Source: Parelaphostrongylus tenuis
Taxonomy: Eukaryota > Nematoda > Chromadorea > Rhabditida > Metastrongylidae
Length of the DNA stretch: 64,000 nucleotides
Assembly (NCBI GenBank): GCA_019055375.1
Contig: JAHQIW010000367.1
Coordinates: 124,001 to 188,000 of the forward strand
Reading direction: 5' to 3'
Position numbers and translations under genes: made by a program. The notes beneath the pieces were generated by a model, which saw only the letters and a list, made by a program, of their open reading frames with translations, had not been told where the DNA came from and did no database searches. Positions 18,021 through 64,000 of the stretch are shown here, piece by piece (the first letter of the stretch is position 1; each line of letters starts with the position of its first letter).

Positions 18021-18134
18021 TAGATTACAAGAACTAATCCATTGAATCGACTGTTTCTAAAACCTCGTAATAAACATTCAAAATCAAATCCAAAAAAAGA
18101 ATGTTTTTAGCCTAAAACGAGGTTGGTACGCCAA

Positions 18135-18180
18135 GGTCATACACCGGTGTTTCGGAGGTTCGTCCTCCTCGTCAGTGACC
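18135..18180 (-). ncRNA. Hammerhead ribozyme motif (left arm, minus strand)
   Basis: Exact reverse complement of the motif at 18586-18631, hence the same three-stem fold on the minus strand. It would be transcribed away from the element's centre toward the left flank. Confidence 0.8.
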
Positions 18181-18585
18181 GCCGCCCCACATTAAGCCCT
18201 GCATTGTAGCAAGAAGGGAGGCGTATCTGGTATGTGGTGATGGCATGGTGTACAATACACTGGTCCATCACCATCAGTCGATGGTTTCGGCTGGTAGACC
18301 AAAACTAATCCATTGAATCGACTGTTTCTAAAACCTCGTAATAAACATTCAAAATCAAATCCAAAAAACCAACATCGTTTTAGGCTAAAAACATTCTTTT
18401 TTTGGATTTGATTTTGAATGTTTATTACGAGGTTTTAGAAACAGTCCATTTAATGGATTAGTTTTGGTCTACCAGCCGAAACATCGACTGATGGTGATGG
18501 ACCAGTGTCATTGTACACTATGCCATCACCACTTACCACATACGCCTCCCTCCTTGCTATAATGCAGGGCTCAATGTGGGGCGGC

Positions 18586-18631
18586 GGTCACTGACGAGGA
18601 GGACGAACCTCCGAAACACCGGTGTATGACC
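18586..18631 (+). ncRNA. Type I hammerhead ribozyme motif (right arm)
   Basis: Read from the sequence: stem I strand GGTCA (18586-18590), core CTGACGA (18591-18597), stem II GGAGG/CCTCC (18598-18602 with 18608-18612) closed by loop ACGAA, core GAA (18613-18615), stem III ACACC/GGTGT (18616-18625), position-17 base A (18626), and stem I return TGACC (18627-18631). All pairs are Watson-Crick and all invariant core bases (CUGANGA, GAA, H17) are present. Predicted cleavage follows A18626. Stem III is a perfect palindrome without a loop, as in Penelope-like and retrozyme hammerheads that may act as dimers. Activity is inferred, not shown. Confidence 0.85.
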
Positions 18632-18689
18632 CTGGCGTACCAACCTCGTTTTAGGCTAAAAACATTCTTTTTTGGATTACAAGAACTGT

Positions 18690-19807: not shown

Positions 19808-20106
19808 AATGGATAAAGCTCTCGGCGTCGATCAAGCCCATAGGATGCGCCGTGCATTCGCTTTCAATTTTCAACTTCTTTGAGGTGATTGAATGCATAT
19901 CTGGCCTATGCAATGACTTGTGGTGGCCTACCGCTGAACCCGAGTGAGTGCTGCTTATCCTCCCAGACAAGCCTGAGACCAGTCTGGTACCAATTTACCG
20001 ACCCCGAAGGGATGGATGGCTAGGCGAGCTATGAGCGCGAGATCAAACCATTGAGCTCGTTTGCGACGCAGAGCACCTCGAACCACTGCACCACATGCGC
20101 TCTTAG
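19808..20106 (-). mobile_element. SINE family A, near full length
   Basis: Reverse orientation. The tail side starts AAGCTCTCGGCGTCGATCAA, then TTGAGGTGATTGAATGCAT, GTGGCCTACCGCTGA, CCCGAAGGGATGGATGG. The tRNA-like head ends at GCGCTC near 20100, with a B-box remnant (GAGCGCGAGATCAAACCA) and an A-box remnant (GAGCACCTCGAACCACTGCA). Confidence 0.85.
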
Positions 20107-22186: not shown

Positions 22187-22647
22187 TTAGTGATGTAAAT
22201 AAATAAGTAAATGAATCATAACGATCATACAAGATCTTCAAAAACGCTATTCCCCTTGACAAGCGATGCAAACACAAACATCTCAACTGAAAATCGTTCC
22301 AAATAAGCCTATGGTTTCGAGAAAATTTCAATCGCGGAACAACTACGAAGCCAAAAGATCTAGTAAACTTGAAATCAAAAATCATCTATAAGATCGATCG
22401 CCGTCGTGCTGATAAAGCAGGGGTAGTAATGCGCCCATTTGGTGCGTGCAAGGCCGTGGTTCTATCGAGCAGCAAGGTGATCCATCCCTCTGGAGTGAAG
22501 ATGTCTCTAGAGTCTTCTGGGATCAGCTTGCTCCCTGCAATCCACGAAAGCCGACACGACTGTCCTCGACGAAGACCGGTGACAAGAGGCTTTCATGGAC
22601 AGCTGTGAGCAGCATCAGCTCTTCCATTGTATGGGAAAAGGATAGAG

Positions 22648-22922
22648 GATAAAGCTCTCGCCGTTCATCGCCTCCTGAGGGATCCGTCATGCACTAGTCT
22701 TTAATTTTTAATCCTGTTTGAGGCTTTTTAATGACTCACGGTGGCCTCCCAGTGTATCGAGTCAGTGCTGCCTACAATCCCGGACGAGTCCGGGAACAGT
22801 GGGGCACCAATTTGCTGATCCCGGAGGGGATTCATGGCCTGGTCAGTCTTGAGCACGAGATCGAACCATTGACCTTATGTGCGGCGCCGAGCACCCCTAA
22901 CCACAGAGCCACGCTCACTGCT
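22648..22922 (-). mobile_element. SINE family A, near full length
   Basis: Reverse orientation: AAAGCTCTCGCCGTTCATCG, GGTGGCCTCCCAGTGTATCG, GGCACCAATTTGCTGATCCC, then GAGCACGAGATCGAACCATT and GAGCACCCCTAACCACAGAG at the head. It abuts the GC-rich block that follows. Confidence 0.85.
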
Positions 22923-26461: not shown

Positions 26462-26600
26462 ATTGGGCGTCACTAGTGCAAGGGTTAGACTTCAAGCTCC
26501 CGGACAGAGTGAAATGCGGGTTCGAGTCCCGCCTGACGCAAAAGTTTTGCACATCACTCTATATCACTGGGTATTCATATTCTGTATTTCTAACGACGAC
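26462..26600 (+). mobile_element. SINE family B, well-preserved copy
   Basis: tRNA-like head: GGGCGTCACTAGTGCAAGGG (acceptor and A-box), T-arm GCGGGTTCGAGTCCCGC with perfect 5-bp pairing, and CTGACGC pairing with GCGTCA of the start. The body AAAGTTTTGCACATCACTCT follows. The anticodon arm is degenerate, so it is a SINE rather than a tRNA gene. Confidence 0.85.
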
Positions 26601-26820: not shown

Positions 26821-27064
26821 ATAGCTTTAATGCCACTCCTTCTGTTGCGGTGTACGTGAAACGCGGGTTCTGCTCTTGTCCGGCATCGAATATCCTCCTA
26901 CCATTCAATACTCTTGGATCTACGGGTTTGAATTTTTATCCTTTTATGGCCACGATTTACCCTTTTGCTTTGGCTCTCAAAGTCCATTCTAAGCCTTTTT
27001 CCTATTTTTATAAAGAGTCTTACTTGTTACAGATCACAGAATACTCAAAAGGGTAAGTATAAAG

Positions 27065-27345
27065 GATAAAGCTCTCGGCGTTGATCAATCCCTGAGGGAT
27101 GCGTCATGCGCTCCTCTCCAATTTTTAACTGTTTGAGGGGATGAATGCATGTCTGGTCTTTACTCTCGGTGGCCTCCCGCTGGACCGAGTCAGTGCTGCT
27201 TATCCTCCTAGATAAATCTGAAACCTGTCTGGTATCAATATACCGACCCCGAAGGGATGGATGGCTTGGTGAGCTACGAGCGCGAGATCGAACCATTGAC
27301 CGACCCTATGCGCGACGCAGAGCACCTCTAACCACTGCGCTACTT
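27065..27345 (-). mobile_element. SINE family A, near full length
   Basis: Reverse orientation with all conserved blocks: AAAGCTCTCGGCGTTGATCA, TTTGAGGGGATGAATGCATG, GGTGGCCTCCCGCTGGACCG, ACCCCGAAGGGATGGATGG, GCGCGAGATCGAACCATTGA, GCAGAGCACCTCTAACCACT. One of the most complete copies. Confidence 0.9.
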
Positions 27346-27574: not shown

Positions 27575-27730
27575 GGGAACTCCGATAGTGCAGTGATTAG
27601 CACGCGTCCTCAGAAAGGGTGAGACGCGGGTTCAGCTCCTGCCCGAGGTTCAAAGTTTTTGCTTAATATTCGACTTTTTTTGATGGACAGTAGCGACATT
27701 ATACCACTGCTCAAAAACGGTTAAGTAGGC
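27575..27730 (+). mobile_element. SINE family B copy
   Basis: Head CCGATAGTGCAGTGATTAGC (A-box) and GCGGGTTCAGCTCCTGCC (B-box/T-arm), then CAAAGTTTTTGC and a tail with ACCACTGCTCAAAAACGGTT. Confidence 0.75.
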
Positions 27731-32765: not shown

Positions 32766-32839
32766 CTCTCCCTCGTCTCGTCCCCACTCGTACTCTTATA
32801 AAATAGCTAGGGCTCTTCGGCTAATATTCGGTCATGAGG

Positions 32840-33425
32840 GGACAAATAAAAAACCAATTTCATCCATAGGAGAGGAACTTCTCATAAGAGTGTTGGTACT
32901 CATTGGAAAGCTGAGGCTTGAGGCTACAGCCCGACGTCGTCAGTTTTTGAAAAAGACTTTGACGTTGCTACAGAAGAAGATTTTTTGCGTTGCAGGCGCG
33001 CATATCTCTCGAGGGACAAAGCTCTTTGTTTGAACTACTAGTAATCATTTAGTAGCGTAATCTTTTTTGATACCAACGGACACGTTTATTGGCGAGAAAC
33101 CCCTCTGCTCACACATGCGAAGTCAACTTATTTTACCTGCTGCGCTGCAGAGAAACGGCCATTTGAGGACATAAGCACAGCTTTGGAATCAGAAACGACT
33201 ACGCTATCGAATGATTATTAATAGTCCAATGATAGAGCTTTGTCCGGCGAGAAATATGCGCGTGTGCAACGCAAGAAATCTCCTGTAGCAACGTCAAAGA
33301 AAGGCCTTTTTGAAAACCGGCGACATGGGGCTGTAACCTGAAGTTCCAGCTTTCGAATGGTTACTAACACTCCTATGAAAAGTTCTTCTTCAGTGAATGA
33401 GATTAGTTTTTCATTTGTCCCCTTA
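32840..33425. repeat. Inverted pair of family C repeats
   Basis: The unit 32840-33060 is matched in reverse by 33225-33425: GGGGACAAATAAAAAACCAA against the complement of TTTTTCATTTGTCCCC, and GTTGGTACTCATTGGAAAGC against CTTTCGAATGGTTACTAACA complement. The spacer is about 160 bp. Together they form a foldback structure. Confidence 0.6.
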
Positions 33426-33439
33426 TAACCTCCAAGAAC

Positions 33440-35592: not shown

Positions 35593-39057
<3,465 letters not shown>

Positions 39058-39479: not shown

Positions 39480-39900
39480 ACAAGGTTGTTCGACATCAAA
39501 AATCCTTATCAGGAGAAAAGGAGAACTAGAACAGTCGTTCAAGAAGTTGTTCATCTGCCTTGTGAGGTATGGTCACAGTGAGATCTGCGTTCTAAACAAC
39601 TTTCATTTACTTTTGTGGAACAAGCAGTCGCGGTTTTTACAACATTATATTTTATTGCACTTCTAAAAAGCCTAAAAAGTTTTTTTTAATGTTAATGTGC
39701 GACAGCATTGAGTAACCTTTTTAGTATTGTTTCTCAGTATGTGATAGAGATTCCGGTCCAACACTAATCTACATTGAAATTCCATAGATAAAAGCAGTAT
39801 AATTTTTGCAAAAAAAAAGGATGGTGGTACTTCTTCTAACATTTCCCAGCACCGACTGTCTATTCATCTCGGCATGCTCCAATATAATTCCTGATTTACT
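39480..39900. other. Downstream of rho-1, no gene
   Basis: AT-rich DNA between the rho-1 3' end and the Penelope-like element; nothing recognisable. Confidence 0.45.
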
Positions 39901-39901
39901 T

Positions 39902-41003
39902 CTTTAAGTCAAACACGAGATGTTATATTGAACATTATTTGACAGCTGACGTTTTGGCAGGTCGACTTCATCAGAGCCTGGAAAGGTCAAATTGTCCGCA
40001 ATCCAATCGGTCAAACACCTTCATTACTCCCTTAGATTCACCAGACCTAGATTTCAATCGCACCAAGCATAAAATCATCTCGCAACATACCGCTTTTTTA
40101 TATGTGTTCCACTGAATGATTCAAGTGGAGACCACCGGAAGGAGATCACATAGTAATGCACCTTACCCATCAAATCAACAGTCATATACACTGAGTCAAA
40201 TCATGAGTGATAACGAGGCATTCTTCCCTGCGGTTTATAGTTGGATTGGTGGTGTTAATCCAGTGTGCTTCCACGAATTTTCGCGTTGATGTTTTTTGTT
40301 CCTGCGCAAGCATGCTGACTGCGATCTCAAAAATTGGTCTCTGTATATTGAAAGATTGTAAAATATGTCCTAACGGCAGAGATGGTGATTGCATGAGCGT
40401 AGGCAAAGTCTACCTAATCTTTTGCAAAGCGTGTAGCGACAAATATGTTGGCGAGACGGGTAGGCCGCTCTATGCCGGCGTAAAACACCTAGCTGACAAG
40501 CGTCTTAATAGATGGAACACCCCGCTAAGGACGTTTAGAAAACAGAAACACGACCTAGTTGATTTTGCGGTCGAAGGCACCATCCTTGCGCTGGAACAAA
40601 AAAATCAGCGCGAAAAATTCTGGAAGCACTTTGGATTAACACCACCAATCCAACTATAAACCGCAGGGAGGAATGCCTCGTTATCACTCGTGAAATGAGT
40701 CAGCATATGAGACTGTTGTTTTGATGGGCAAGGTGCATTATGAGCCTATGTGATGTCCTTCCGCTCATCTCCACTCAAATCACTCAGTGGAGCACATATA
40801 AAAAGCGCTGAGTATGCTGAGAGTTGATTTTCTGCCTGATACGACTGAAATTTAGGTCTGGTGATTTTTTCTAGGGTATTAATGAAGGTGTTTGACTGAT
40901 TGGATTGCCGACAATTTGACCTTTCCAGGCTCTGAAGAAGGCGAACTGCCGAAGCGTCAGCTGTCAAATAATGTTAAATGTAACATCTCGTGTTTGGCTT
41001 AAA
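39902..41003 (+). mobile_element. Penelope-like retroelement remnant with long inverted repeats
   Basis: Left arm 39902 to about 40315 and right arm about 40590-41003 are imperfect reverse complements of about 410 bp, from CTTTAAG(T/C)CAAACACGAG at the outer ends inward into the coding region. The unique centre carries a GIY-YIG endonuclease frame. Near both outer ends there is a hammerhead-like motif: at 40935-40965 on + CTCTGAAGAAGGCGAACTGC then CGAAGCGTCAGCTG, and on - in the left arm CTCTGATGAAG..CCTGCC..AAAACGTCAGCTG. An endonuclease domain together with ribozyme-like terminal repeats and partial inverted copies is characteristic of Penelope-like elements. The reverse transcriptase part is missing. 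Confidence 0.75.
40207..40659 (+). CDS. GIY-YIG endonuclease domain fragment of a Penelope-like element
   Basis: The domain lies in the C-terminal two thirds of a 150-codon frame. It has a cysteine-containing linker (CILKDCKICPNGRDGDC), then VYLIFCKACSDKYVGETGRP, the GIY-YIG core with the catalytic-type R after GETG, and a KHLADKR helix. In complete elements this domain sits C-terminal to the reverse transcriptase and nicks the target DNA for insertion. Here the N-terminal 35 or so codons are the inverted copy of the 3' end and are not real protein, so the true domain starts near 40310. The frame is intact to TAA but the element as a whole is truncated; it is probably not expressed. Confidence 0.75.
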   Translation: MITRHSSLRFIVGLVVLIQCASTNFRVDVFCSCASMLTAISKIGLCILKDCKICPNGRDGDCMSVGKVYLIFCKACSDKYVGETGRPLYAGVKHLADKRLNRWNTPLRTFRKQKHDLVDFAVEGTILALEQKNQREKFWKHFGLTPPIQL

Positions 41004-41009
41004 GAAAAA

Positions 41010-42430
41010 AATTAGAAAGAAAAGGATGGACAAACACGCATGGTTTTTCAAATTCCTAATGATTTCTAAGGGAAAAAGTACTTGACTGAAGTGAAAAGAA
41101 ATAGAATTGAAGTATAGAAGAAGTAGGTACAGCAAAATCTCGAGAAAGTGTACGAACGCTCCTATTTCCAACACAGACCGCTTTTATCTATCTAGTCTTG
41201 GGGTATTACTTATATGGGGCCAAATTTGTTCGGTGGCAATCGTCAGACGTCTGGGTTCGAATCCATGAGGGTGTCATTTATGAGTACCATGAATTGTTTT
41301 CGACTTGTAAAGGCGGCGGAAATGAATCATATGCACATCTGGTTATTTTCCAAAATGCTGTCTTAGGTGACAATCACGTCTTATGACATCGCTATGGTCC
41401 AGAATTCGTAAACAACTTTCGTGAAGAGTTTTCGAAGCAAACGTAAGAAAGTTTGGAAAGATAGCCGCGATGATTTCTCGCTCACTTTTTTTTGGACATA
41501 ATGACCTTGCGTGGGGCCTACTTAGTCTCAAATCCTTGTTCTTAACGCCATGTTGGCATATAAGGTGTGAGAAGTTTATGAGCTTATAACTTCTAGGATG
41601 TAGTTTGTTCTGGTCCTGGAACTGTTCCTGCTGGCATGATTCAGACCGCAAGTCAAATTTTACAAGAGTCGTATGCTTGCCCTTCAACAGAAATTTCGGT
41701 GCCTTTTTATGGTTAAATTCATAGGAAAGCAAAACGAGAAAGAAAGCCTTTTCTTTTCATTTATGAAGGTATAGTTAGTTATCTATGTTCGTTCATCAGC
41801 GTTAATAATGGGACATAAATTTACCGAGAGTTTTAACTAACACATTTTTTCACAAAGGCTTTTTGATCCTGGTCGCAGTAGTTCCCTTTTCTACCTGCAT
41901 CGATATAAATCTTCCTTCATAGCATCCGATATTTTTCGTCGCCCTTGTCAAGTGTGTTACGATCAGACAGTTGTGTTAGAATAACGATCTGTGCATGAAG
42001 AACTGAGGCGTAATCGGCCGAGTTTCATGAGAACTTAGGGGTCCTTGGTTAGACTTCCTCAATACGCTTCACATAGGGAGGGGAGAGGAGGGGGAAATCC
42101 CGTTCTGTTCTTTATGTTCACGTCATATGTTAGCTTTTTGCATTGAGCAATGACATTTCTCAGCATGCAGGAAAAGTTTAAATTACGATTTGAACCATCG
42201 AACGGACGTGATCTTTTTCACTAACCTTTCTATTGAGGCGTTGAACTCTTGGCTACGCTATTAACATTTTGTGAAAAGAGCTGCTCTTTGTGAATAACGA
42301 GGACATCGTCATCTAATTAGCATACGTCGGATTTTTCCGCTTTGTCTCTCCCATGACAACACTATGTGACGTTCAGCAGGTTTTGTGGTGACGTGCTGTG
42401 GTCGGGACTAGTAAGTGATCCTTGTACCAG
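41010..42430. other. Interval between Penelope-like element and urocanase exons
   Basis: The last coding exon of the minus-strand urocanase gene is expected here but was not identified. A tRNA-like patch lies at about 41215-41285 (CTGGGTTCGAATCC B-box-like). Open frames are otherwise chance. Confidence 0.35.
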
Positions 42431-42579: not shown

Positions 42580-45500
42580 CACTTCCTGTGCTCTCTTAAT
42601 CGCCTCTTGTGCTTTTTCATTACCCGACCAGCTACGCCGTGCCACTCCATTAGAGACATCCCATTGAAGCATAGCTCGAGCACGGTGGGCTGCTTCCTAG
42701 ATGGACCACGATTGTTCCATATATATAGAGAAATTCTAAGTGAACATGCATGTGATAGTGATGCAGCATACAATAATGATCAGACTGAAGATCTTCCAGA
42801 TTCGAATAGTTTCAAAGGCAATGAGCGTAAAAGGACATGAAGTTGGAGGGTCAGACGAGAGGGAAGCCGTAGGATAAAGGAGATAGTGCGATGGACGCAA
42901 GGACATAATTACTATTTCATTGACAAGACTTTGGTGGGTTAAAAGTGTAGTTACAGATGATTTTACGATAATCTATGCTGTCACACTATAAAAAATTGAA
43001 GTGTCTGCTGGTGAATAGACGTAACGTTGATAAGTTCTAGCTTTAACTTTACTTGCAAAACATTTTTAGAAAACAATCCACTACATTGAGGATGTCGAAT
43101 GAAGGGGGGACCATCTCGGCAAAACTACTCTCTTGGATTGACATCGTTTTGGCATTCCTTTTTCGAGACATGGGGAGTCGACAGGTTTTCCGCTCAAACG
43201 CTCTTTGCATAATTTCGTTTCAATTCCTTATCACATGGTAGTTTTCACTCCTTTTCTTGCAAAGAGTTTACCAGTCGGTAGCCCATTCGACATTCGAGTT
43301 TTCGCTGAGCGTATAAATTGAATTTAGTCAGTACACGTGATATATATTATTGTGCTGCCCATGGTCTTCTTAACCATTTTCTAGTGAGTTCTGCTTTTCA
43401 TTGACTCCACGCTACATATTGCTACAAAACCAAAACCTTGTTGAAATGAATCAATGACTGACCTTTCGATACAAGACATTTTCTTCACTGAATTATCAGA
43501 ATGGACCATATTTTTGGCTTGTATTCTTACCTCGGATCCATCGAGAACCATTCCGAATCCTCCGTTGATGACATCACCCCATCCCACACCGCCCCCATTG
43601 TGCAGTGACACCCATGTCGCGCCTCGGAATGAGTCACCTAAACAGTGAGTGTTCTTCAATCGTGAAAAAAAAAATGGGAATGAAAAGGTCATCAGAATAA
43701 TGGAAAACAGAACTTTTGGACTTTAACTTCAATTTCAGATTTCGAACACCTTTGCACAATCGAGCTAATCAAGGCTTCAAAATATTTTGCTCTTATTCAT
43801 CCCTTGCCTACTCAACACTGCACATAGACTGTAGTCCTTGTTAGCTCAGTGAGTCAAGTGGTCGCAAATATTCTGCTAACAAAAGTAACAAGTTATTGTC
43901 TCAAAAAATATACTGTGCTGTCGGTGTTAGATGCATCCATTATTCTTATTGTGTAACGCGACCATTATATTCCTACAACAACACGAATACTACCTATGGA
44001 GTTATCTTGAGTTGGAAAATTCTCTAACATATATTTACTTAGAATAAGGTGTAGTAGAAGGCCATTAAGTGGTAAATCACTGAAAGCTCATACCAATAAC
44101 ATTCTGAACCGCCATATCGGCCGTGTACGCACTACCATCAGTGATATTAGACGTCTCACGAAATGGCGAATCAGTTCCGGAGACATCGTGATGATCTCGT
44201 GAAATGACGATAGGGGCCTTTAAAGACAAAAATATAACCTATGGGTTTCATTCTAGTCACAGATGAAAAAGATTTTTGATTTCGTTGTGTTCAAACCTCA
44301 GCTCTTATAGCTTTTAGGCTTGAAATCTGTCTACATGAGAGCACCATGCTTTTTGTTGTCGAACTTATTAAACTGCTAAAGAGCATTTGAATGCAGTTGA
44401 CACTCGAGAAGCAATAACGATTGAAATCACGTAGTCCTTTTTTTTTTCTTGTTTTTTTGGAAATCTGTGGGTACCGTGCAACGCTTCTACTTTCGGCTTT
44501 TTTTGCTTGCACCAAATAGGACTGGCTTTGAATTGCTTACTTCTGGCATTGCAGTCTCAGAGTCGATGACTCTAGTATCTAAAAGATTGAAGGTTCCTTT
44601 ATACATGCCTTCCTACAAGCAATCATCAGATCGTGTACCTTTTTCATCTCAATTTGTAGTGTATTGTTACCGTGAAGATGTATTAAGTTGTAACTTTTGT
44701 CGTGTTCCATGCACGACTCATTTTCAGAATCTTAAATGAGGCCATTTCTCTTCGCTTCATATGAATCTTGCTTACATTTAGAGAGGTTATCTACGGACTT
44801 TACTCTGCGTATCAATAAAAAAGAGATGTAGTTTTCGTGCATAAGTTTGCAATGAATTTGAAGACAAAAATAAAAATGAGTAGTGGGATTTTGCTTTTGT
44901 TCTAATTAATCCTCGTGCATTGGATATGCTCAAGTGTCGAAACAGTGAACGAGAATCACATTTCCGGTTCAAAAATATGTTGAGCATCTAACAGCAAAAA
45001 GTATCCATAATTTCTTCTGTATGATTTTTTTTCCTTACATATGAGAAATATTTATTCTTTCGATTTTACAACATCTCTTCATATAGTTTCTCGTTCTTTT
45101 TCGGTACGGTCTTCAAACTGTGAATGAGTCACGAACAATTCAGTGAAGGTCAATCAATGGAACTTTGTGACAGAGCTGCTAAGGGATGTTTTGTACATTG
45201 AATTTCTTTTCGAACATCTACTACGTGACGTGATGATCCGAATGTACTCTCCGCATCAATGCAGTAAGTGAGTGCCATGTGAACGAACACAGCATTTCTA
45301 ACACAAGGAACGCTGTCGGCTTGTTCAAGTTAACGAATAGCATCGCGTGTAACAAATAAGACAACCTCAACGAAACCACTTTTTTGCGATGTTCGAAACA
45401 TGTCTCTTTGTCTTTTCATGAGGATGAAAAGCATGAAGTATAAGCGTTCGATGCTGTTCAATCGCTAAGGGATGCGCTATGCATTCGACTCCACTAGGTA

Positions 45501-47518
45501 TTGAAAGTGATTGAATGCATGTCTGATTGAAACAGTGACTTATGTTGGCCTATGATGTATCAAGTCAGTGCTTTTATCTCAGAAAAGTCCGATGCAAGTT
45601 GTTGACGTGGGAGGAAGAAGTTTCGAGGGCTCACTTCGCAAAATCGAACCAACGACGACACGCCACGTAGGGCACATTTACTCACGGTCCGTTGGTTCTT
45701 GAGGACGGCAGGAAATCTTCTCTAGCTTTTTCATATTGAATATATAAATGTATTCTTTGTGAATTATCACTAAAATGACTAGAAATATCGTGCAAAGTTA
45801 ATGTGCAGCCTTGGTTTTTAAATTTAGGACATAGTTCACATTCGAAACTCTGGACAGGTCGTATCAAAATCATGTTATAAGATATTTATCAGTGTACGAA
45901 AATTATATGGGTTGATGTATAATCAATTAGGATTTCTTCTATTCAACCGCTTATAGCAGTGGTAAGATGTCATATATATAACCACTAATGCTCAGTAGAG
46001 GAGCGCATGTGGCGTAGTGGTTAGAGGTGCTCTGCGTTGCAAACGAGCTCAACGGCGCGATCTCGCGTTAATGACTCACCAAGCCATCCATCCCTCCGGA
46101 GTCGATAAATTGGTACCGGACTGGTCTCAGACTTGTCTGGGAGGATGAGCAGCACTGACCCGGTTCAGCGACAGGCCACCACGAGTCATTGTAAAGGCCA
46201 GTTATGCATTCAATTACCTCAGACGAAGTTAAAAATTGAAAACGAATGCATGACATATCCCTTAGAATTTGATCAACGTCGAGAGTTTTATTCTTTAGAG
46301 CTTTCAATGTTGAGTGATATGTAAAAGTTTGAAGGTCAGACGGATTCGAACCTGCATTTCAGTCTTTCAACGGACACGTGCTAACCATTGCACTACCACG
46401 CTCCTATATGGATTGAACTCAAACATTTTACCTATTGTGATGATGTTACTCCGGCAGCATTCATAGACGAACTCGTATTCAATCTTACATCAAGAAACTG
46501 TTCAACTTTGACTAACTTACAGATACTCTTTGACTTTTGACAGCTTCGTTGAAAGCCAGTGCGAGTGCAATTCGCCCTTCTTGATCAGAGTATAGAATTC
46601 TGGCTTGACTTCCGACAACAAGACGGTTAGCAGCTGCACCTTCAACCCACTTTTTATTGTCGTGGTACTGCTGGCGTACGTGACTCGGTACTGCAAAAAG
46701 GCAGTTGTGCGACTAAACAATTTGGACATGAAAGCCACTAAATGATCAGCTATCAAACTTTTCTCAGCACCCTATCGGGTTGATAAAGATGTGCTTATGA
46801 CTACCAATAAGTCCAGAATTGGTAATCAATGACCATTTATTCTTGATGCAAGCAAACAGGTGACATTAGCAGAACCGAAGAATGATGACGCTTCATGTCA
46901 GGACACCAATGAGCCAATCTATGCATAAATCAGATGTTCGTTTTTTAGATCGTGTAGTGACTCAAAAGTGCATGCATTTCCATTTGTCTTTTCTATGATG
47001 GATCCGACTATTGCTTAGTTACGCCTTGCTGTTGAAATCACAGTCGTGACCGTCCAATAGTTGTCGTGAAAACGAATAATGTGTCTGTCCAGATTGATTT
47101 CGTATATCTTGGCACCCTTGATCGCTAGAAATTGTTGTAATTTTGACTTCTCTCTCACTTCTGAGGTCAGAATAGGATGTTCTCTGTCCTCTTATTACAG
47201 ACCCACATCTTTAATGTTTCCATAATCTCTACAAGCCGCTTGCTTCTTTCTGCCAATCTCTGAAGTTAATTCTATTATCACTTGACTTCTCGATGGGCCT
47301 GAGCAGACCAAAGTGTAATTAGGATAAAATTCAATCGAAAACTCCAATAACTGCTGGCAGTTCTTCACTCCTTATCGGGTTTCCGGATTGAAATAACTAA
47401 CTTGCTCGATCTTAGGAATCACCTTTTGTTGCACATCTGAGCCCGATAATTGAGGTGATTAATCGTTGACAGAAAACAGGTGTAATTCTATGTGTACATG
47501 CCTAATATTGTTAATTCA

Positions 47519-47576
<58 letters not shown>

Positions 47577-50500
47577 TATATGCATTTATTTATTCGTATT
47601 CCTGCATGTGAATATTTGTAATTATCTAGGTTAAATCTCACCATCATCTTTCATAAGACTGTCGATCACTTCACATGAGATCTTATCCGTCTGTGCAAGA
47701 TCTTCTGCTTTTTGAGAGGTGCACACCCAGCGGAATGGTCCGAAACCCATAGAGAAGATGTCGCTGAAATTAAAGAAGCCATTAGTCTATTACTATTCAC
47801 CGATGTGATATTCGTTGTTGAAGATTGCATTGAAGCAACAAACTGTGACTTCTGCTTGAGATTAGAGTTTATGATTGCGACCCAATCCACCTACAGCATT
47901 ACACAGTAATCATATAATTTTAGTCAACGGAGTTTATGCAGTATTTATGACCACAACCTTTTCGCAAATGCTATTATGCTTCTAGGACCACCTTTATGGA
48001 CAACGGTGTTGGAAGCTTTGACGAAATGAAAAAATAAGTTCGGACCTCATGGATTGTGAAAACGCACCATCCATGCTTCCAAAAAAGGTATCATTTGAAC
48101 CAGCATAAGCCTCAGATATCTAAGCTCGACTGTGACTGCGAGTTAAACGCAGTGCTACTTACTATCTTCGAAAATCATCCACATTACTGAGTAGTAGAAG
48201 TTTCACGGCTGGGAAATCTCTCAGATTTTGCTATATTTGTTTAGTTCTGCTAACAATTTTGAGTCTTTTACTAAGGATAACTTCGATGGCCTTCATTTTC
48301 CTCCGTTCTCAAATACTTATTTAGCCTTCTTATTTTGCCCTACATGAAAAAAAGTGATGCACTATGGCTTTGTAGCTCGACTCTTACCCCATGATATCTT
48401 GCATATAGGACGGATATCTAAACGTTTTATTGTCCTTGGCCTGCGGATGGAGCATATTAGCTCCTGCTCGTTCACACTCCAGCAAAAATGCATTGCCGTA
48501 ATCCCAGAAGTGCATTCCTCGAGCACACAGCTTGTCAATAGCCGCAATTTGACGAAGAAGGCTGAAACATGTGACGATAATGGGAATTTTTCTGAGGTCT
48601 TCGAAAGTTGGGAATAATTACTTGCCTGTTCTGGACCAGTTTTTTGAAGCGCTCCGGCTCATCGGTCATCATCGTGTTCGCTTCCTCTACACTTACGTCC
48701 ACCGGATAATAGCCACCCAAAAATGGATTGTGCAATGATGTTTGGTCGGAGCCGAGATCCACCAAAAGTTCCGGTTCTGCCGCCAAACGCTCCCTTTGAA
48801 ATTATTTTATAGATTAATAGTAACATAAAAATGTTTATTTTTGAGATACATTGAAGAAAACTCTCACGGTTTTCACCTCATACAATTGAATTACCCTAAT
48901 ATAAATTTTTTCCACTAGTTTAATTTTTAAGCTTTGAAATTCGCAAGTAATTGTATAACACATTGACAAATATGTTTGCTAAGACAAGCTTCAACAAAAT
49001 TCAAATTTCATGCCTTTTTAACTCGCGATAATGTTTCTGTTTGGGGAAGAACGAAAATAGAAAGCTGTTTGAGCTGCTTTTTGCATGGTGAGTTTGATTA
49101 TGGTGATATATATATGTATATATATATAGTCATTCAATAATTTTGAACTAACAATGTGAGCAAAGCTGAACATTATCCGCATTGAGAATCAAATGGAAGT
49201 CATATTAGTTTAAAACTCACCACAAGTCTACCACATTTCCAAGATAACCTATACTGATTGTCTTTTTCTGTTTTCTAAACTTTCTGATGAGCTCCACAAT
49301 TTTGCTAAGATCACATGAATATTCGTCAAGCCAACCCTGGTTGTACCGTTTCATAAGGGCGTCAGAGCATACCTAAGCAGAAAAAATGACACCCTTACGA
49401 TTTTCACCATTTGATGTGACGTAATAACAGGAAACCTGAGCATCTTTCTTTGTTTTCCTGGATAACGAAAATTACAATAAATTTGAAATCACCTCAGCAA
49501 CCACGGAAATGCAGCCGGCGATACTGGAGGCTTTCGGCTGAGCTCCGCTCATTCCACCTAGCCCAGCCGTGACAAAAACTTTACCAGCAAGGTTTTCAAC
49601 ACCGAGATAACGTCGTCCGGCATTCATTATTGTGATCTGAATTTGAAAGCAGTGCTCATTTGAATCAGTATACCATATTCTTGATAATAACGTTATAGAT
49701 AATTTCGAAACGATCCAAAATTCAAAATTCTGCTCTTCGGTGACAAGTTTTCTTTGTCCAAGAAATATCAAAATCCTGTGATTGCTAATTCACACATTTG
49801 ATTATCGAAGATCCGCCTTAATTTGAGGTTTCCAATTTTTTTTTATAACCTGAATTTTCTAGATGGCATTCTCTTTAGTCGCAGTGCTTTCAACAATAGT
49901 AAGCAACAATACTACGACAACTGAAAACCTGAGTCCGCCAATATTAATTTTTTGGAATTGACTTCCTCGAGAACCTTCCAGCAAAAATAATATTAATTTC
50001 TTAGTAGCCTAAAATAGTTTTATTTCACAACAGAAAATTCCCACCGTTGTGCCGTGAACAATTCCTTGAGGGCCAATATAGCAATAACTTCCAGCTGTCA
50101 TTTGACCATATTGTGTGACACCGATAGCGAACAACTTGTCGTATAATGACTTTGTGGAAAAATTCGGAATCATCTGAAAAATTCAATTAGTGGCGATTTC
50201 GTGTCCTATATAAAAACTTCCTCATTATTTTCATCATTACTGGTCTCTGCAATTCAAATACAATCGCTATAATATTTGGAAGAATGAGTGTAAAAGAAAT
50301 ATTCAGAATAAACTCTCAACCATATACCATGCCGTTAGTTATAGTTACTCTTGGCGCGTCTGCATGGCTCGGAAATAGCCCCAAAGGATGCCCGGAGTAG
50401 ATGACAAGAGTTTGCTGAGAAGACATTCGAAGCAAATAGAGAAGCACCAGACGAAACTGTAACCGAATCATCAATGAATTGAATCCCGCTCATTATTTCA

Positions 50501-50905
50501 TTAGTCAATTCACTAATGAGTCCTTGAAATGTTTATTTACAAGAAAAGAAGCGTATGATATTTGTTACCTGTATCCAGTTGCTGAAAACTTGACCATTTC
50601 CACCGTAGGTGACTAGTTCTTGTGGATATTGAGCTACTTCTGGATCAAGATTGTTAAGAATCATCAGGATGATCGCCGCTGCTTGCTGAGACTTAGCAGG
50701 GATTTCTGACAACGGTGGAGCCTAGAAATAATACCAACTGGTCAATGGTATTTTCTCTAAAGTTGCTTCATACCTTTAAATGAAAATTCGGCATGAATCG
50801 GAAAGCATAAATGTGTCCGTACAGTTCCAATTCCTCGACAAATTCTTTCCCCAGAATCTCGTGATGTTCTTTGGGAATATAGCGCAAGGCATTGCGCACA
50901 GCCAG
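42580..50905 (-). CDS. UROC1: Urocanate hydratase (urocanase), 13 exons identified, terminal exons missing
   Basis: Exons in gene order: 50905-50774, 50721-50569, 50456-50328, 50173-50045, 49636-49493, 49372-49221, 48793-48626, 48561-48388, 47763-47642, 46690-46521, 44217-44094, 43637-43531, 42696-42580. They give 607 codons with every phase consistent; animal enzymes are about 676 aa. Landmarks are VTYGGNGQVFSNW, MTAGSYCYIGPQGIVHGT, the NAD-binding GLGGMSGAQ, DLGSDQTSLHNPFLGGYYP, FWDYGNAFLLECERAGAN, SRDHHDVSGTDSPFRETSN and LHNGGGVGWGDVINGGFG. The enzyme adds water to urocanate to give imidazolone propionate, with tightly bound NAD+, in cytosolic histidine degradation. About 42 N-terminal and 25 C-terminal residues are unaccounted for. 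The intron after 48626 has a GC donor (AG|GCAAGT), required by the reading frame. The 2.3-kb intron 44218-46520 holds three SINEs. Confidence 0.96.
45441..45685 (-). mobile_element. SINE family A, decayed, in urocanase intron
   Basis: Reverse orientation: CAATCGCTAAGGGATGCGCT, TGCATTCGACTCCACTAGG, TGATTGAATGCATGTCTGAT, CAAGTCAGTGCTTTTATCTC. The head is strongly degenerate. Confidence 0.7.
45940..46412 (-). mobile_element. SINE family B split by a SINE family A insertion
   Basis: The family B tail (CAACCGCTTATAGCAGTGGT) lies at 45945-45997, and its body and head (GTTGAGTGATATGTAAAAGT, CAGACGGATTCGAACCTGC, AACCATTGCACTACCACGC) continue at 46306-46412. The intervening 45998-46305 is a family A SINE. 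The break carries an imperfect 11-bp duplication. Confidence 0.8.
45998..46305 (+). mobile_element. SINE family A, full length, nested in SINE-B
   Basis: Head GCGCATGTGGCGTAGTGGTT then AGAGGTGCTCTGCG (A-box), a B-box remnant CGCGATCTCGCG, body AGCCATCCATCCCTCCGGAG, GACTTGTCTGGGAGGATGAG, GGCCACCACGAGTCATTGTA, tail GATCAACGTCGAGAGTTTTA. Flanked by AATGCTCAGTA (45987-45997) and AATGTTGAGTG (46306-46316), an 8-of-11 matching target duplication. Confidence 0.9.
47519..47580. repeat. TA microsatellite
   Basis: Uninterrupted TA run of about 55 bp ending in AAATATATATG, in a urocanase intron. A shorter one lies at 49108-49130. Confidence 0.9.
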
Positions 50906-55565: not shown

Positions 55566-56110
55566 GGTGACTCTTTGGTGGATTTGCCTTGTTCAGAGCC
55601 TGGGAAGGTCAGGTAGCCCATAAGGCAGTCAGTCAAACACCTTCGTTACTTCTAGCGAAAAAAATAACCAAACCTCGATGTCCGTCGCGTTAAGCGCAGA
55701 ACAACTTTTCAGCATACTTATAGTTTTTTATGCGTCTTCCACTAAGTTATCCAAGTGGAGACCAACAGTGCTGAGATCACATAGACTGCGTATGCACCTA
55801 TCACCTCAAAACACCACTCATTTTACACGTCATATTCATTTCGGGCTTAATTCGATGTAGAAGGTTCATTTGAAAGCCATCAGGTCTCTGCTACGTTGAT
55901 ATCCACATGGACAATTCAGTCGAAGACTCACAAAAAGCACTGAATTTGTTGAAAAGCTGTTTTTTCCTCGATGCGATCGAAAGCTAGGTTTGTAATTCCT
56001 TCTGCTGAAGTATTAGAGGCGGTTGAATGACTGGATTGTGAGCAACCTGATCACTTCAAGCTCTGAAGAAGGCGAAACCACCGTAACGTCAGCTTTTCGA
56101 ATGAATCGTG
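55566..56110. mobile_element. Second, internally deleted Penelope-like inverted repeat
   Basis: Left arm about 55566-55830 and right arm about 55880-56110 are imperfect reverse complements. They resemble the arms at 39902-41003: TCAGAGCCTGGGAAGGTCAG, GTCAGTCAAACACCTTCGTT, AAGTGGAGACCA. On +, 56055-56100 reads AGCTCTGAAGAAGGCGAAAC then CACCGTAACGTCAGCTTTTC, a decayed hammerhead-like order with an AAGCT/AGCTT outer stem. No endonuclease sequence remains. Confidence 0.6.
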
Positions 56111-58189: not shown

Positions 58190-58495
58190 ACAGAGCGCAT
58201 GCGGCCCAGTGGATAGAGGTGCGCTGCGTCGCACACGAGGTTAATGGTTGGATCTCGCACTCATGGCTAACTAAGCCATCCATCCCTCAGGGGTCGGTAA
58301 AATGGTATCAGACTGGTATCAGACTTGTCTGGGAGAATGAGCAGCACTGACTCGGTCAGCGGGAGGCCACCGCGAGTCATTGTAAGGGCCAGATATGCAC
58401 TCAGTTACCTCAAACGAGATTAAAAATTCAATACAAACGCATGACGCATCCTTCAGAGATTGATCAACGCCGAGAGCTTTATCCCCTTTTATTTA
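58190..58495 (+). mobile_element. SINE family A, full length with target duplication
   Basis: Head GAGCGCATGCGGCCCAGTGG then ATAGAGGTGCGCTGCG (A-box) and TGGTTGGATCTCGCACTCA (degenerate B-box), body AAGCCATCCATCCCTCAGGG, GACTTGTCTGGGAGAATGAG, GGAGGCCACCGCGAGTCATT, tail CAACGCCGAGAGCTTTATCC. Flanked by TGGTTTGAACA (58182-58192) and TGGTTGAACA (58496-58505). Best-preserved reference copy. Confidence 0.92.
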
Positions 58496-59308: not shown

Positions 59309-62300
59309 CTATTCGTTATCAACAAGGCTTAGATGGGTGATTTTTGAAAAGTCGAACTCCTGTGTTGTTCCACGTTGGAAAATGTCCAGTACATCCTGAA
59401 AATGCAAGCCTTACGAAATGGAAAACAGTGGGAAATAATGACTATGGTCATTCTACACCACGTCAAGCTTATCGAAAAGCATTTCGAAAGTAAACAGAAC
59501 ATCGTTGAATTAAATCAATTCGTAACGATACACTCTTTTACACTGTGAAGAATTCAGAGGAAGGAAAACGATAAAACCACGCAGTGATTACTTCAAGAAC
59601 GATAGGAGAAAACGGCAAATAGTATCAATGTAAATCTAAGTGGAAATATCGTGCATCCTCGACTAAAAAACTAACCTTACAAGTTGTTTCAAAGTGAGTT
59701 GTGGCATCGTACGATCTCGATATAAAGATTTGTGACTCATGGCCCAAGTCAGTGGGCTCGTACATGTCCGACACCGAGATGAATCTGAATGATTTTAGCC
59801 GTAAAAAGAGCTTGAGCGGAAACCTAAAGAATGCCACAAAGCAGTCTACCACCTACTTTTCGGTTATAGTGCCTAACAGTTGAAGACCCGGCAAGATCTC
59901 AGCTTCAGGGTTGTTCGTTTCGACTGTAGTGGACACCATTGCGACAAACCATCCTTCCGGAGTAACCATATTCGTGTTTGAACAACATGAGATATAAATA
60001 TCTAAAAATTCCAAGAAAAAAAAAAACTCGTGGCTCGTGAATAAAGGTAGTGATACGTAACTTACCAAAATGTCTTCCAACTTGCTTCTGTGGAATGATA
60101 ATTTGGCATGATTTAGAGTCGTTTGTACCAGGAATGGGATGATTTAAGATACATATAGCTCGAACAACTTGACCTACTTTTTTAACCCTATCCATAGCAT
60201 ATGATGGATCGCAGTAGACCTATAACAACTCTTACAAACAATAGTAAGCAGTTGTAGATATACATCTGAAAGTACTGAGTGTTATGCAAAGCATTCGACC
60301 ACAGACAGGAGTTAAACCCCGTTTCACCCATAAAGAGGGTGCATGCTACCAATCCTATGCAAGTTCAACTCACTCCTGGAGTTTAATGCTTTACATACCA
60401 CTCGATACTCCTATATATATATTTATAACATTATAATACTCCTAAAGGCACTTAAGATAATATCAAATGACAAGAATTTCTCTCAAAAAATGAACACCAA
60501 ACTCTCAGAATGCTTTAGCACTGAACTGCTCCTCATACTGATTGAAAACTAGAAATTAGTGGCCTGTAGCCCAGCTAAATTTGAGTATCAGCGAACTCAG
60601 CCAGCTTGTTACAGAATTTCCAATCATTTGGGGACGGCATTTGATCGATCGCGCAGCGCGTTGTCAAAGACGAGCGATTTCCTTTATTTGAGTTTTTCTC
60701 CGTTTTGACAAAATTTCCTTTCTTTTTCCCTTCGAAAACTTTCCTTTCAAAAAGTTTTCTCTGTGTTACTCTGATACTCTATAATATTTCCTACACGTGA
60801 ACTTTTCGGGAATGTAAAACTCTCACGTGCGAAGAAAACTTCGAGTGCTGAACGTACTCTTCTTTTCGTTCTTACAGAGGAAACCTCGGAAATTTTAGCT
60901 TCAGAATCGTGGACATTTGAGCTATCGAGCGATCACTAAAAATCTGGCGAAGAGCCATCCACAGACCCTAACCGAGCAAACAAGACAAATCAAGTATGAA
61001 ACAAAATTTTATTTCAATTGTTATAAGGCATCAAAGAAGCTTTTTTGATAACCAACAAATTTTTTGCAATCATCGTTTTTCAAGCTATCGAGTGGTTATC
61101 AAAACTTGGTGGAGAAGCTTTGTGCGGCGAAAAAATCCAAAGAAGCAAGAATACATTTATATAATGCACTCCGTCTTCAATGGATTCATATCTACTCGTA
61201 ATATAATCAAAACGAAGTGATCACCTGCTTTCCTTTTACTGATTCTTCTCCACATTTCACACCAACAACCTTCCCATTCTCTATGATTAGATTATCGACC
61301 GGCTTATCCAACATATAGGTACCACCGTAAATCGCAGACAAACGGGCGAAACCCTGATAAACAAAGAAAAAATACCTTTGACTTCCGATGATGTGGTGAA
61401 AAACGATAGATAAAAATTTATATTAAAACACTCTAAAATACAACAGTATGTGAAGAGAGATAGTAAACGGCCACTTTTCCCGTTCCTTCACTCTTCTTGA
61501 TCAAACATAAACAAAAATTTAGTAAAATAGCATTGGCCTTTAACAATTTTTGGTCACCATCTTCTTAGTACGGAGAAATAATACCTGAGGAAGCTCGCCG
61601 AGTCCATACAACGGATAGAGGTATGGAGACCGTCCATATCGCGCCAACGAGTCAGAATAGAGACGGATCCGCTCAACAGTCGCACCAAATGGCTGGTTCT
61701 TATAGCTGTAAGTACCGGAAGTCATTCAAAAGTTCCGTCGGAAGTAGATAAAACCTCTCCACTTACTCATCATCGCGATAAAGAGCTAAGGCATGACCAG
61801 TGAAGTCAGCAGTGTTGTCGTCAAGACCGAATTTTTCATACACCTAAAACTCACATTCCTAAAAGATAACAACAAAGTCCACAAAATCACAACCGACCTG
61901 CTGCATTGTGTGAACTTCAGGGTCAAGCCCTTGCCATGTATCCGTATTTTCCCGGGCAAATGATTGAACCCAAACGAGGAACTTCTTGAAGCGACGCTTC
62001 TCGAACATCCCCATCAGGCTCGTTGACAGCGCCTCCATTTCATCAGCCGGTACTTTGTATACCTATATTACAGAATGACCGGAAAAAGCAAGAAGAGTTC
62101 AAGTGCCTTCAGTAGCTTTGCTTCGAAATCAGCTTCAATAACCCCAAAAATATGTCTAAAATATTGAGCATACCTTCCCACCCTTGTAAACATACGATCC
62201 TTCAACAGATTTGAACTCGAGATATCGAGTAACACCAGTGTGTATCAGAAGTTTCACTAAAGAACCATTGGCCATAAGGAACTTCGGGATCAAATCCACA

Positions 62301-63774
62301 TTCCAATCGCGACCACGACCCATCTCTGGTGGCGGTTTGGCGTTTGGCCCTGAATTTTCCACGAATATCCACCCGAATACAAACGAGGATAATATGAATA
62401 TAACACTTAAAGGATAAAGCTTTCAATGTTGATCAATCTTGAAGAATGCGGCATGCATCTGGCTCCATTCGTAGCATCATTTGAGGTGATTCATTGCATT
62501 CTTAGCGTTTACAATGACTCGTGGTCTCCTATCAATGTATCAGATCACTCCCGCTGTCCTCCCAGACAAGTCTGATCGTCGACGACTCCGGAGGGGACGG
62601 AAGCTTGATGAGCCTTGAGCGCGGGATCGAATGGACGACCATTGATTGATCGATTACTTGTGTGTCACAGAGTTCCTCTAATCACTGCGTGATAATAAGC
62701 TCGTAAGAAAAGTGGACTTACCCTCTTAAATCTGCAATGGAGCCTTACTGAATGTGAAAAATACGAAGGCTATAAAAACTGGGAGTACATTAAGAACATA
62801 TAAAGTCTCTTATGACCATGAACGAACCCATAAACTTCTCGTAGAGTTGGCCAAGGGGAGACAATGATGCCGACTCTCCGCCATAGTAATTGTTCCGGTC
62901 AATATGTAGAACCTTCTTGCCACTGACGGATAACATTCCAGAAATAATACACTCCTAAAATACGAGTAAAATATAATAATTTCACAGACACCATAATATT
63001 GAGCTTGCAAGGATTTTTCCGGACATTTCCGTTTCACTTGATTATTTTTCGCGTATTTTTTGTTAAGTTGTTTTCACTATCGTTCAGAGCAGTTGCTTCT
63101 TGCGGTTTCTTTGATTTATAACACTAATACATTTGTTTTAAGATGGGGATATTCTGAGAACGGAAACGATTGTCGATGCCAGACGAGTACTGCTTGGGTT
63201 CAAGTATTGCTTAGACTTTCCGCCGGATTAACGAGGCCTGGGGGGGGGGGGGGGGGCAGGACAGTTGGGATAAGCGCAATTTTGATCCTTTCAATGAATT
63301 CAAGGCTGCAAATGGAGATTTGACGCACAAGTAAGGAGCCGGTCGCCTACAAGAAATTGACGGAAAAGCCGCTTCGAATGAAAATTAGTGTCAAAGCCAG
63401 TCATGAATGTATTGAAACGATCAAAAACTGCAGCTCTTCTAAATGTTCCGTCACTCCGGACCTCGTTAATCCGGCGGAAAGTCTCAGCAGCGCTCAAAAC
63501 CCAAAAGACCGACACGTTTAACATCAACAATCGTTTCCGTTCTTGGGATGATTCCATCTTACAACAAATGTTATAAGTGTTATATATCAAAATAACCGCA
63601 CAAAGCTGCTTTAAGCGATAGTACAAGCAAAAACTTAAATGCACGGAAAATAATCCACAAAGACGAAGAAATCCAGGAAATTTCTTGGATCTAATACATA
63701 GGACCGACTTATAATGACGTCCAACTTACCTTGAGCCCCGTTCCCAGAACTATTGCATCGTATTCCTCGTCCAT
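59309..63774 (-). CDS. gdi-1: Rab GDP-dissociation inhibitor GDI-1, complete, 11 exons
   Basis: Exons in gene order: 63774-63730, 62954-62828, 62349-62174, 62062-61898, 61843-61767, 61705-61585, 61353-61225, 60219-60066, 60001-59857, 59784-59676, 59395-59309. Phases are consistent throughout and the product is 444 aa, as in the C. elegans protein. GDI extracts prenylated, GDP-bound Rab GTPases from membranes and keeps them soluble in the cytosol for recycling. Visible are the N-terminal nucleotide-fold motif [30 protein letters not shown], the Rab-binding-platform stretch [63 protein letters not shown] and the C-terminal [12 protein letters not shown]. There is no CAAX tail, as expected. Intron 1 (63730-62955) contains foldback element E, intron 2 a SINE-A and intron 7 a SINE-B. 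Confidence 0.98.
60240..60365 (-). mobile_element. SINE family B copy in gdi-1 intron 7
   Basis: Reverse copy: TACTGAGTGTTATGCAAAGC body, ACAGGAGTTAAACCCCGTTT (T-arm complement), GGTGCATGCTACCAATCC head. The arms are degenerate. Confidence 0.7.
62405..62700 (-). mobile_element. SINE family A in gdi-1 intron 2
   Basis: Reverse orientation: GATAAAGCTTTCAATGTTGA, TTGAGGTGATTCATTGCATT, CAATGACTCGTGGTCTCCTA, CCTCCCAGACAAGTCTGATC, GAGCGCGGGATCGAATGGAC. The head ends TCTAATCACTGCGTGATAA. Inserted between the second and third coding exons without affecting their splice sites. Confidence 0.85.
63065..63690. mobile_element. Foldback element family E, copy 2, in gdi-1 intron 1
   Basis: Left arm about 63065-63235 and right arm about 63440-63660 are reverse complements with scattered changes. 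Shared words are TTGCGGTT, TATAACACT, AGAACGGAAACGATTGT and TTTCCGCCGGATTAACGAGG. The centre includes a run of 17 G (63240-63256) and a chance open frame. The right flank TCCACAAAGACGAAGAAATC also matches copy 1 beyond the arm (26320-26345), so the element extends past the pairing region. Confidence 0.7.
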
Positions 63775-63804
63775 CGTTAGTTGGTTGGCAACGAACAGAA
63801 GGTC

Positions 63805-63818
63805 CTCTTGAAAGAAAA
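63805..63818 (-). promoter_or_regulatory. Probable trans-splice acceptor of gdi-1
   Basis: On the minus strand TTTTCTTTCAAG ends at 63807, 32 bases before the ATG at 63774, and no upstream coding exon is expected for this protein. This is a standard position for spliced-leader addition in nematodes. Inference. Confidence 0.45.
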
Positions 63819-64000
63819 CAGGACATCTACAGATTAAGATCGTTGGCATATTAATATAATCAATTATTATAACCGTTTGTACGGCATTTTATACAGAATA
63901 AAACAGATTCCGATATAAAAATTCATTGACTAAATTGTACAAATATCAGTTCTTGACAGCTAAGCAAGCATAATTGACAGATGTCATCGGTATCCATGAC

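Follow-up and report, generated by a model that had tools for sequence, protein, structure and literature searches.

In animals, Penelope-like elements (PLEs) have been put forward as strong or likely candidates for the enzyme that moves retrozymes (PMC7229834, PMC7761336), and a reduction of retrozymes from PLEs has also been proposed (PMC11722881). A short helix III with a palindromic tetraloop is reported for animal retrozymes (PMC7229834); other animal hammerheads are described with palindromic stems III that might let them pair into dimers (PMC3088659). Penelope elements of Adineta are described as mostly head-to-head, with duplications of 8-10 bp and a 31-bp tail (PMC3846280). At AT-rich sites, purified PLE protein, a predicted dimer, cleaves both DNA strands and extends them; an optional PLE tail of 30-40 bp sits between its two start sites (PMC11167929). 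In the same study, Anolis PLE hammerhead mutants still inserted in vitro, so ribozyme action need not belong to insertion itself.

The locus considered here is a mirrored pair of hammerhead motifs at 18.0-18.7 kb of the window, that is, of the whole 64,000-nucleotide stretch of DNA that was analysed. With good confidence, it is read as a non-autonomous, non-LTR nematode retrozyme that a PLE copied into the DNA at the two ends of a staggered cut. Insertion that started at both ends of a single cut most likely left the mirror pair as its footprint.

Hammerhead structure and conservation

The 46-nt hammerhead sequence at 18586-18631 on the + strand (predicted cleavage 18626/18627) recurs letter for letter at 18180-18135 on the - strand (feature 18135..18180, predicted cleavage 18140/18139) and nowhere else in the window, as had been predicted. 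It parses as stem I GGTCA/TGACC, the core segment CTGACGA, stem II GGAGG/CCTCC with loop ACGAA, the core segment GAA and stem III ACACCGGTGT. All three stems are Watson-Crick paired, the core is complete, and the A after stem III is hammerhead position 17. Stem III can be read in two ways: the loopless palindrome of the original prediction stands as a 5-bp reading, and the alternative is a helix of 3 bp capped by a CCGG tetraloop, itself a palindrome.

With a strict type I descriptor, the window yields two matches, which are the two hammerheads, and 100 simulated windows (64 kb each, first-order Markov) yield none, bearing out the view that a chance match is improbable. A very loose type I descriptor gives one match across the same 100 windows. 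Counting intact copies gives 368 exact matches to the 36-nt core in the 481.5-Mb assembly, 189 of them forward and 179 reverse; the control pattern, the core read backwards, is absent from it. Of 77 copies picked for their whole-unit similarity, 72 have an intact core; in a second locus set, picked for carrying the exact core, the figure is 31 of 42. The strict descriptor, the exact core copies and the 72 intact cores all uphold the assignment to type I with an intact core. Over 32 distinct hammerheads, 96.4% of stem cells are paired, against 22-39% in slid versions, and two stem pairs show two-sided base changes. Covariation is modest, with 16 of 500 shuffles reaching the percentage paired and 36 of 500 reaching the count of doubly changed pairs.

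The absence of a covariance-model score above threshold had been named in advance as refuting the motif. Across the window, 15 retrozyme loci and one PLE locus from the same genome, every Rfam hammerhead family stayed under its gathering score, a result that, taken literally, would refute the prediction. The top match aligning to exactly the 46 nt is RF03152 (RAGATH-1-hammerhead), at 14.1 bits with a cut-off of 56.3 (E 2). Matches to microRNA precursors at a relaxed Rfam threshold looked strong and were rejected as meaningless products of the long foldback. Judged on its sequence, the window hammerhead is very likely an active ribozyme.

Anatomy of the window insertion

The insertion spans 18036-18674 (639 bp) and consists of two outward-pointing arms with one hammerhead each. 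The repeat unit is non-coding, 271 nt long and 45.8% GC, and every open frame within 18036-18674 is shorter than 90 aa. Unit positions are numbered from the first nucleotide past the cleavage site. The + arm (18368..18674, + strand, 307 nt, sense outward) runs from unit position 13 round to 48 and carries + strand direct repeats at 18368-18402 and 18639-18673, spaced by 271. The - arm (18036..18367, - strand, 332 nt, sense outward) runs from about unit position 43 round to 104; its - strand direct repeats, at 18027-18097 and 18298-18368, also have a spacing of 271, and the first nine letters of the left repeat are flank. A 13-nt target-site duplication, GATTACAAGAACT, is present on the + strand at 18023..18035 (left copy) and 18675..18687 (right copy), with 4 nt common to the unit continuation in each copy. 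The outer ends set by this duplication would be reverse-transcription starts, one at 18674 (+, unit position 48, zone A) and the other at 18036 (-, unit position 104, zone B), and these are the commonest anchored positions of the two zones defined below. Aligned by eye, the arms show about a dozen differences outside the hammerhead; the computed divergence is 3.4%. A near-palindrome of the unit, TTTTAGGCTAAAA, lies near the inner junction of the locus.

For a transcript of the whole locus, the predicted fold is a hairpin (about -512 kcal/mol) in which each ribozyme is buried in its own antisense. Self-cleavage of transcripts from either strand, which had been suggested, is therefore unlikely as the function of this locus. 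Since a whole-locus transcript would hide both ribozymes, the window copy probably does not serve as a source of ribozyme, except when transcribed from within one arm.

Head-to-head insertions in the genome

A DNA search of the assembly gave 2556 candidate places, of which 40 were scored. To these 40 listed clusters (39 and the window itself) the locus sample adds 24 taken from the list of exact cores, giving 64 loci that resolved into 68 clusters. Left out were a palindromic contig (C951), the duplicates L041 and L031, and three clusters shorter than 120 nt, leaving 62 insertions, 39 of them two-armed and 23 one-armed. All 39 two-arm insertions, of which the first set supplies 24 and the second 15, have the -/+ topology, that is, head-to-head with sense outward, and the +/- (tail-to-tail) topology is not seen among them. 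This agrees with the predicted outward-facing mirror arrangement. The idea of a built-in pair does not hold, as the mirrored copies are arms of a single insertion, and one-armed insertions make up 23 of the 62. Among the exact-core matches listed, close copies on opposite strands are -/+ at 14 of 14 places (assessed by eye), seven of which lie outside the sampled set.

Arms are often longer than the unit. More than one unit is present in 41 of 78 arms, the longest having about 3.9 units, and 34 of the 39 two-arm insertions have at least one arm exceeding one unit. Arm lengths within one insertion are mostly very unequal.

Contig C951 (G000:C951:1-25453; L033, L072-L074) carries 34 near-identical units in two orientations. 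It was considered as a huge head-to-head insertion and dropped as a likely assembly foldback, because 1.9 kb of its flanks are mirrored at 98.3%. Mirrored flanks of this kind are found in none of the 39 two-arm insertions, two of which have weak inverted repeats (152 nt at 73% and 58 nt at 81%). All C951 units have a changed core base (GAA to GAG), and they are thus probably without ribozyme activity. One long C951 array with the altered ribozyme may be real, which raises the matter of how its RNA reached unit length.

Target duplications and start sites

The flanks share at least 10 nt in 31 of the 39 two-arm insertions (12 nt in 15, 13 nt in nine, 10, 11 or 14 nt in six, and 27 nt in one), compared with 0.8% of 2000 draws in a control with mispaired flanks. 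The 27-nt shared flank is an AT repeat and was not counted, leaving a credible duplication (10-14 nt) in 30 of 39 insertions and none in nine. The 30 credible duplications are 73.6% AT. At least 10 nt are also shared by the flanks of 12 of the 23 one-arm insertions; these were not used as evidence, because some, L029 and L055 at least, are repeats of the unit itself.

The 78 outer (3') ends fall mainly in two zones of the unit, zone A (44-72) with 34 ends and zone B (93-120) with 37, and seven lie elsewhere; the zone boundaries were set after inspecting the ends. Within insertions, the ends pair as A-B in 31 of 39, as A-A in one and as B-B in none, the remaining seven having one end elsewhere. 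In 20,000 permutations, A-B pairs averaged 16.3 and never exceeded 29. Overlap between target and unit at the outer ends averages 1.55 nt, against 0.43 in the control, and 38 of 60 ends are anchored.

RNA template

Of 104 arms from 65 clusters, 96 run across the sealed ribozyme cleavage site. The 5' ends do not pile up at this site, with three of the 104 within 5 nt of it and 3.8 expected. Twenty-two pairs of tandem units inside arms have a median difference of 0.5%, with outliers at 3.9% and 6.1%. Between the arms of the same insertion the median divergence is 2.1% (34 loci), and between arms of different insertions it is 6.0%; an arm's own partner is closest or tied for closest in only 12 of the 34 loci. 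Some arms, all picked by eye, halt near the other start site: short B arms (38-51 nt) do so close to A in L009, L011 and L022, as do A arms close to B in L020, L054 and L070. Endings of this kind would be expected from two copying events on a shared circle. A circular template most simply accounts for the arm data, the alternative being an uncut multimeric transcript.

The resident Penelope-like element

The genome harbours a very large PLE family, with 10254 candidates and, among the 150 listed, open frames of up to 978 aa. Many of the listed copies have long open frames and identical match scores, which suggests recent activity of the PLE. The copy L083 has an 893-aa ORF with RVT_1 (1.1e-11) and GIY-YIG (2.4e-7) domains. 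It is itself a head-to-head insertion with a 12-nt duplication, in which the right arm stops at site A' and the left arm continues to site B'; A' and B' are 40 nt apart, compared with 56 nt between A and B in the window retrozyme locus. Four PLE insertions were read at both ends (L083, C1287, C4566 and 39888-41018 of the window), and all four have A' on one side and a tail on the other. The tail ends at B' in three of them, and that of C4566 has diverged. Shared flanks of at least 10 nt are present in three of the four (12, 15 and 10 nt) and absent from the old window copy. Among the 150 matches listed, those to GIY-YIG on opposite strands within 12 kb of each other are -/+ on 12 of 12 contigs by eye, of which C1287 and C2303 are possible duplicates, their spacing being identical.

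The window copy at 39888..41018 (no strand assigned) is a decayed PLE insertion, again head-to-head with sense outward, its right end being A' and its left end the tail site B'. It includes the GIY-YIG portion of a PLE ORF remnant at 40351..40641 (+), which has a Pfam E of 0.08, below the cut-off on its own; the remnant is 73-82% identical to other genomic copies listed, and the L083 copy passes the cut-off. A protein search with the GIY-YIG fragment gave no match at E 0.001, and a PDB sequence search gave no meaningful match. A third head-to-head pair, at 55568..56094 (no strand assigned), consists of decayed PLE 3' ends. The 3' end of the PLE carries a hammerhead-like motif, GGCT-CTGAAGA-...-GAAACGTC-AGCT (L083:4892, G000:C416), which is minimal and differs from that of the retrozyme. 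The retrozyme insertion and the PLE are separate families, and the element at 18.0-18.7 kb has no reverse transcriptase/GIY-YIG ORF. The link to retrozymes and PLEs drawn in the original prediction is borne out, the resident PLE having the same insertion marks.

Resemblance of the start regions

The PLE has the order minimal hammerhead, ACCTCG, A', CGAGG (at a start codon), ACAGTCGG, B', and the retrozyme has hammerhead, ACCTCG, A, CGAGG, ACAGTCG, B. A second retrozyme subfamily consists of L058, L059, L062, L051 and L066, most of which carry ACAGTCGATCTTTTGA in the start region; four of these copies look nearer to the PLE than the window type does. Under the most lenient scoring, L058, L059, L062 and L051 compared with three PLE copies give z of 4.7-10.3 over dinucleotide shuffles, and in each comparison 0 of 400 shuffles score as high. 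As the PLE copies are related, these comparisons are non-independent tests. Real window tiles are a better control than shuffles, and the resemblance shrinks against them: among 1402 tiles, those scoring as high number 0-2 for L059, 2-3 for L058, 0-8 for L062, 1-25 for L051 and 22-381 for L066, the ranges being across PLE copies and the counts those of the most lenient of three scoring schemes, the stricter of which weaken the resemblance. For the window-type copies L042, L014 and L018, 28-678 of 1402 tiles score as high (28-548 for L042), making them indistinguishable from the tiles.

The comparison of the window unit with the PLE is equalled by 43 of 2000 shuffles, and scores as high or higher are found in 28 of 186 genomic segments, some of which may hold retrozyme, and in at least one of 42 PLE ORF segments. 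When the alignment is extended over the hammerhead, z is 1.4-4.5 in five comparisons. A joint RNAalifold fold of the PLE and retrozyme start regions yields no consensus pairs. The CCTCG/CGAGG stem is near-invariant among retrozymes, with one pair appearing as U-A in 31, U-G in four and C-G in two, and the covariation term is small; in one PLE copy ATCTCG/CGAGAT replaces that stem. The likeness of the start regions is suggestive of a common origin, and as evidence it weighs well below the insertion marks.

Other features of the window

Three genes were recognised by eye: Rho-like GTPase exons at 37132-39057 (+) and urocanase exons at 43384-50905 (-), both with single-exon Pfam matches, and the exons of a Rab GDI gene at 59856-63888 (-), with Pfam and protein search matches. 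The closest match to the Rab GDI is from Angiostrongylus costaricensis (84% identity), and all named sources among the first 56 matches are nematodes, in keeping with the nematode origin that had been proposed from the letters; the nematode is probably a strongylid. ARAGORN reports tRNA-like sequences for Pro at 26467-26540 and for Ser at 27579-27651, the latter with a marginal Rfam score too, and more tRNA-like matches are present in the retrozyme flanks of L020, L044 and L066. A dispersed repeat of about 290 bp occurs in both orientations, with copies some 68-84% alike, at 19813-20102, 22638-22912, 27064-27340, 46001-46291 and 58193-58482. Self-palindromic MITE-like repeats lie at 1728-2124, 32830-33430 and 38163-38270.

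Proposed mechanism of insertion and alternative explanations

Under the preferred reading, copying by a PLE from both ends of a staggered cut, the hammerhead would cut transcripts in vivo to unit-length RNAs, which would then be sealed into circles. The PLE reverse transcriptase/GIY-YIG endonuclease would cut AT-rich DNA with a stagger of about 12-13 bp. Both free 3' ends would prime on retrozyme RNA, one at A (about position 48) and the other at B (about position 104), and we infer that a single RNA serves both primers. Each copy may circle the template more than once. The products would join at their 5' sides, giving a head-to-head insertion with hammerheads outward between target-site duplications. 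A more specific form of this reading can be offered tentatively, at somewhat less than even chances: a single circle is primed at two fixed sites from a single staggered cut by Penelope-type copying, and the retrozyme is a trimmed PLE parasite that has kept the start-site RNA beside its hammerhead, much as a SINE relates to a LINE.

Of the alternatives, the one that survives best is a variant in which the arms come from two RNA molecules, one per strand, handled by a dimeric enzyme. The partner-arm comparison is in its favour, the own partner being nearest in only 12 of 34 loci, as is the predicted PLE protein dimer (PMC11167929). However, independent molecules predict A-A and B-B about as frequently as A-B, and in multi-unit loci the differences between arms resemble those between units (by eye). 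We regard the variant as rather unlikely.

Fold-back self-priming of one reverse-transcription product, or an antisense template, could also yield a head-to-head structure. Self-priming has been proposed for palindromic Penelope junctions (PMC3846280), and the unit near-palindrome lies close to the inner junction in the window. Self-copying predicts the same outer end on both arms, however, whereas the ends are A-B in 31 of 39 insertions, A-A in one and B-B in none; arm lengths inside an insertion are also usually very different. This route is therefore improbable.

Ordinary twin priming, with a LINE-type element as the mover of the repeat, is a still weaker prospect. Twin priming of L1 with target duplications is known (PMC2837659). 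Against it, the starts here are two internal sites of the unit and not a poly(A) end, and the resident PLE has the same two-start pattern. Moreover, L1 inversions are adjacent pieces, and the 34 of 39 insertions with an arm of more than one unit have arms that overlap in sequence.

That the motif is a chance ribozyme look-alike in a satellite would fit the negative Rfam result and is nonetheless scarcely credible, given the strict descriptor (0 of 100 random windows), the intact core in 72 of 77 copies and the pairing of 96.4% of stem cells against 22-39% in slid versions. Finally, a foldback DNA transposon (MITE) with an incidental hammerhead-like sequence would suit a window in which self-palindromic repeats are frequent (e.g. 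32830-33430 and 1728-2124), but its probability is negligible, as the arms are circularly permuted and often exceed one unit, one-arm copies occur, the outer ends are unlike between the two arms and the duplications are mostly 12-13 nt.

Comparison with known systems

That metazoan retrozymes of this kind exist and are linked to PLEs is already published; the insertion evidence was not found in open-access searches. Among the listed open-access papers, none was found to report a nematode retrozyme, the head-to-head rule, the two start sites or the start-region resemblance.

The closest described elements are the metazoan non-LTR retrozymes (PMC7229834), with which the window element shares a type I hammerhead, a non-coding unit of 170-400 nt (here 271), a GC content below 50% (here 45.8%), tandem units, target duplications of more than 4 bp and co-occurrence with PLEs. 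No LTR-like structure was seen in the retrozyme loci. The published elements are described as tandem, and the main text of that paper contains neither 'inverted' nor 'nematode', whereas 39 of the 62 insertions here are head-to-head, with two start zones.

The pLTR and minimal-hammerhead PLEs share the head-to-head arrangement, short duplications, an optional tail at one end and two starts, as described for them (PMC3846280, PMC11167929). The duplications reported for Adineta PLEs are 8-10 bp (PMC3846280), compared with 12 nt for the complete PLE copy here. Unlike a PLE, the retrozyme has no such ORF, a unit of 271 nt, a proper hammerhead stem III and arms exceeding one unit.

Two primers, and inverted copies between target duplications, are shared with L1 twin priming as described (PMC2837659). 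Unlike in L1, which is copied from a linear poly(A) RNA, the retrozyme template is continuous across the cleavage site and its arms can be longer than one unit. With the LTR retrozymes of plants, the element would share a hammerhead-processed circular RNA as the retro-intermediate; those elements differ in their reported type III hammerheads, LTRs, PBS/PPT and 4-bp duplications (PMC7229834, PMC7761336).

Set beside these systems, the insertion marks left in the genomic sequence point to PLE machinery, to its start sites and to a circular, or at least continuous, template, and they would explain palindromic hammerhead repeats as a by-product of insertion. The head-to-head, two-start pattern is a simple signature to seek in other animal genomes, and it makes the question of what moves retrozymes testable with PLE protein and a 271-nt circle.
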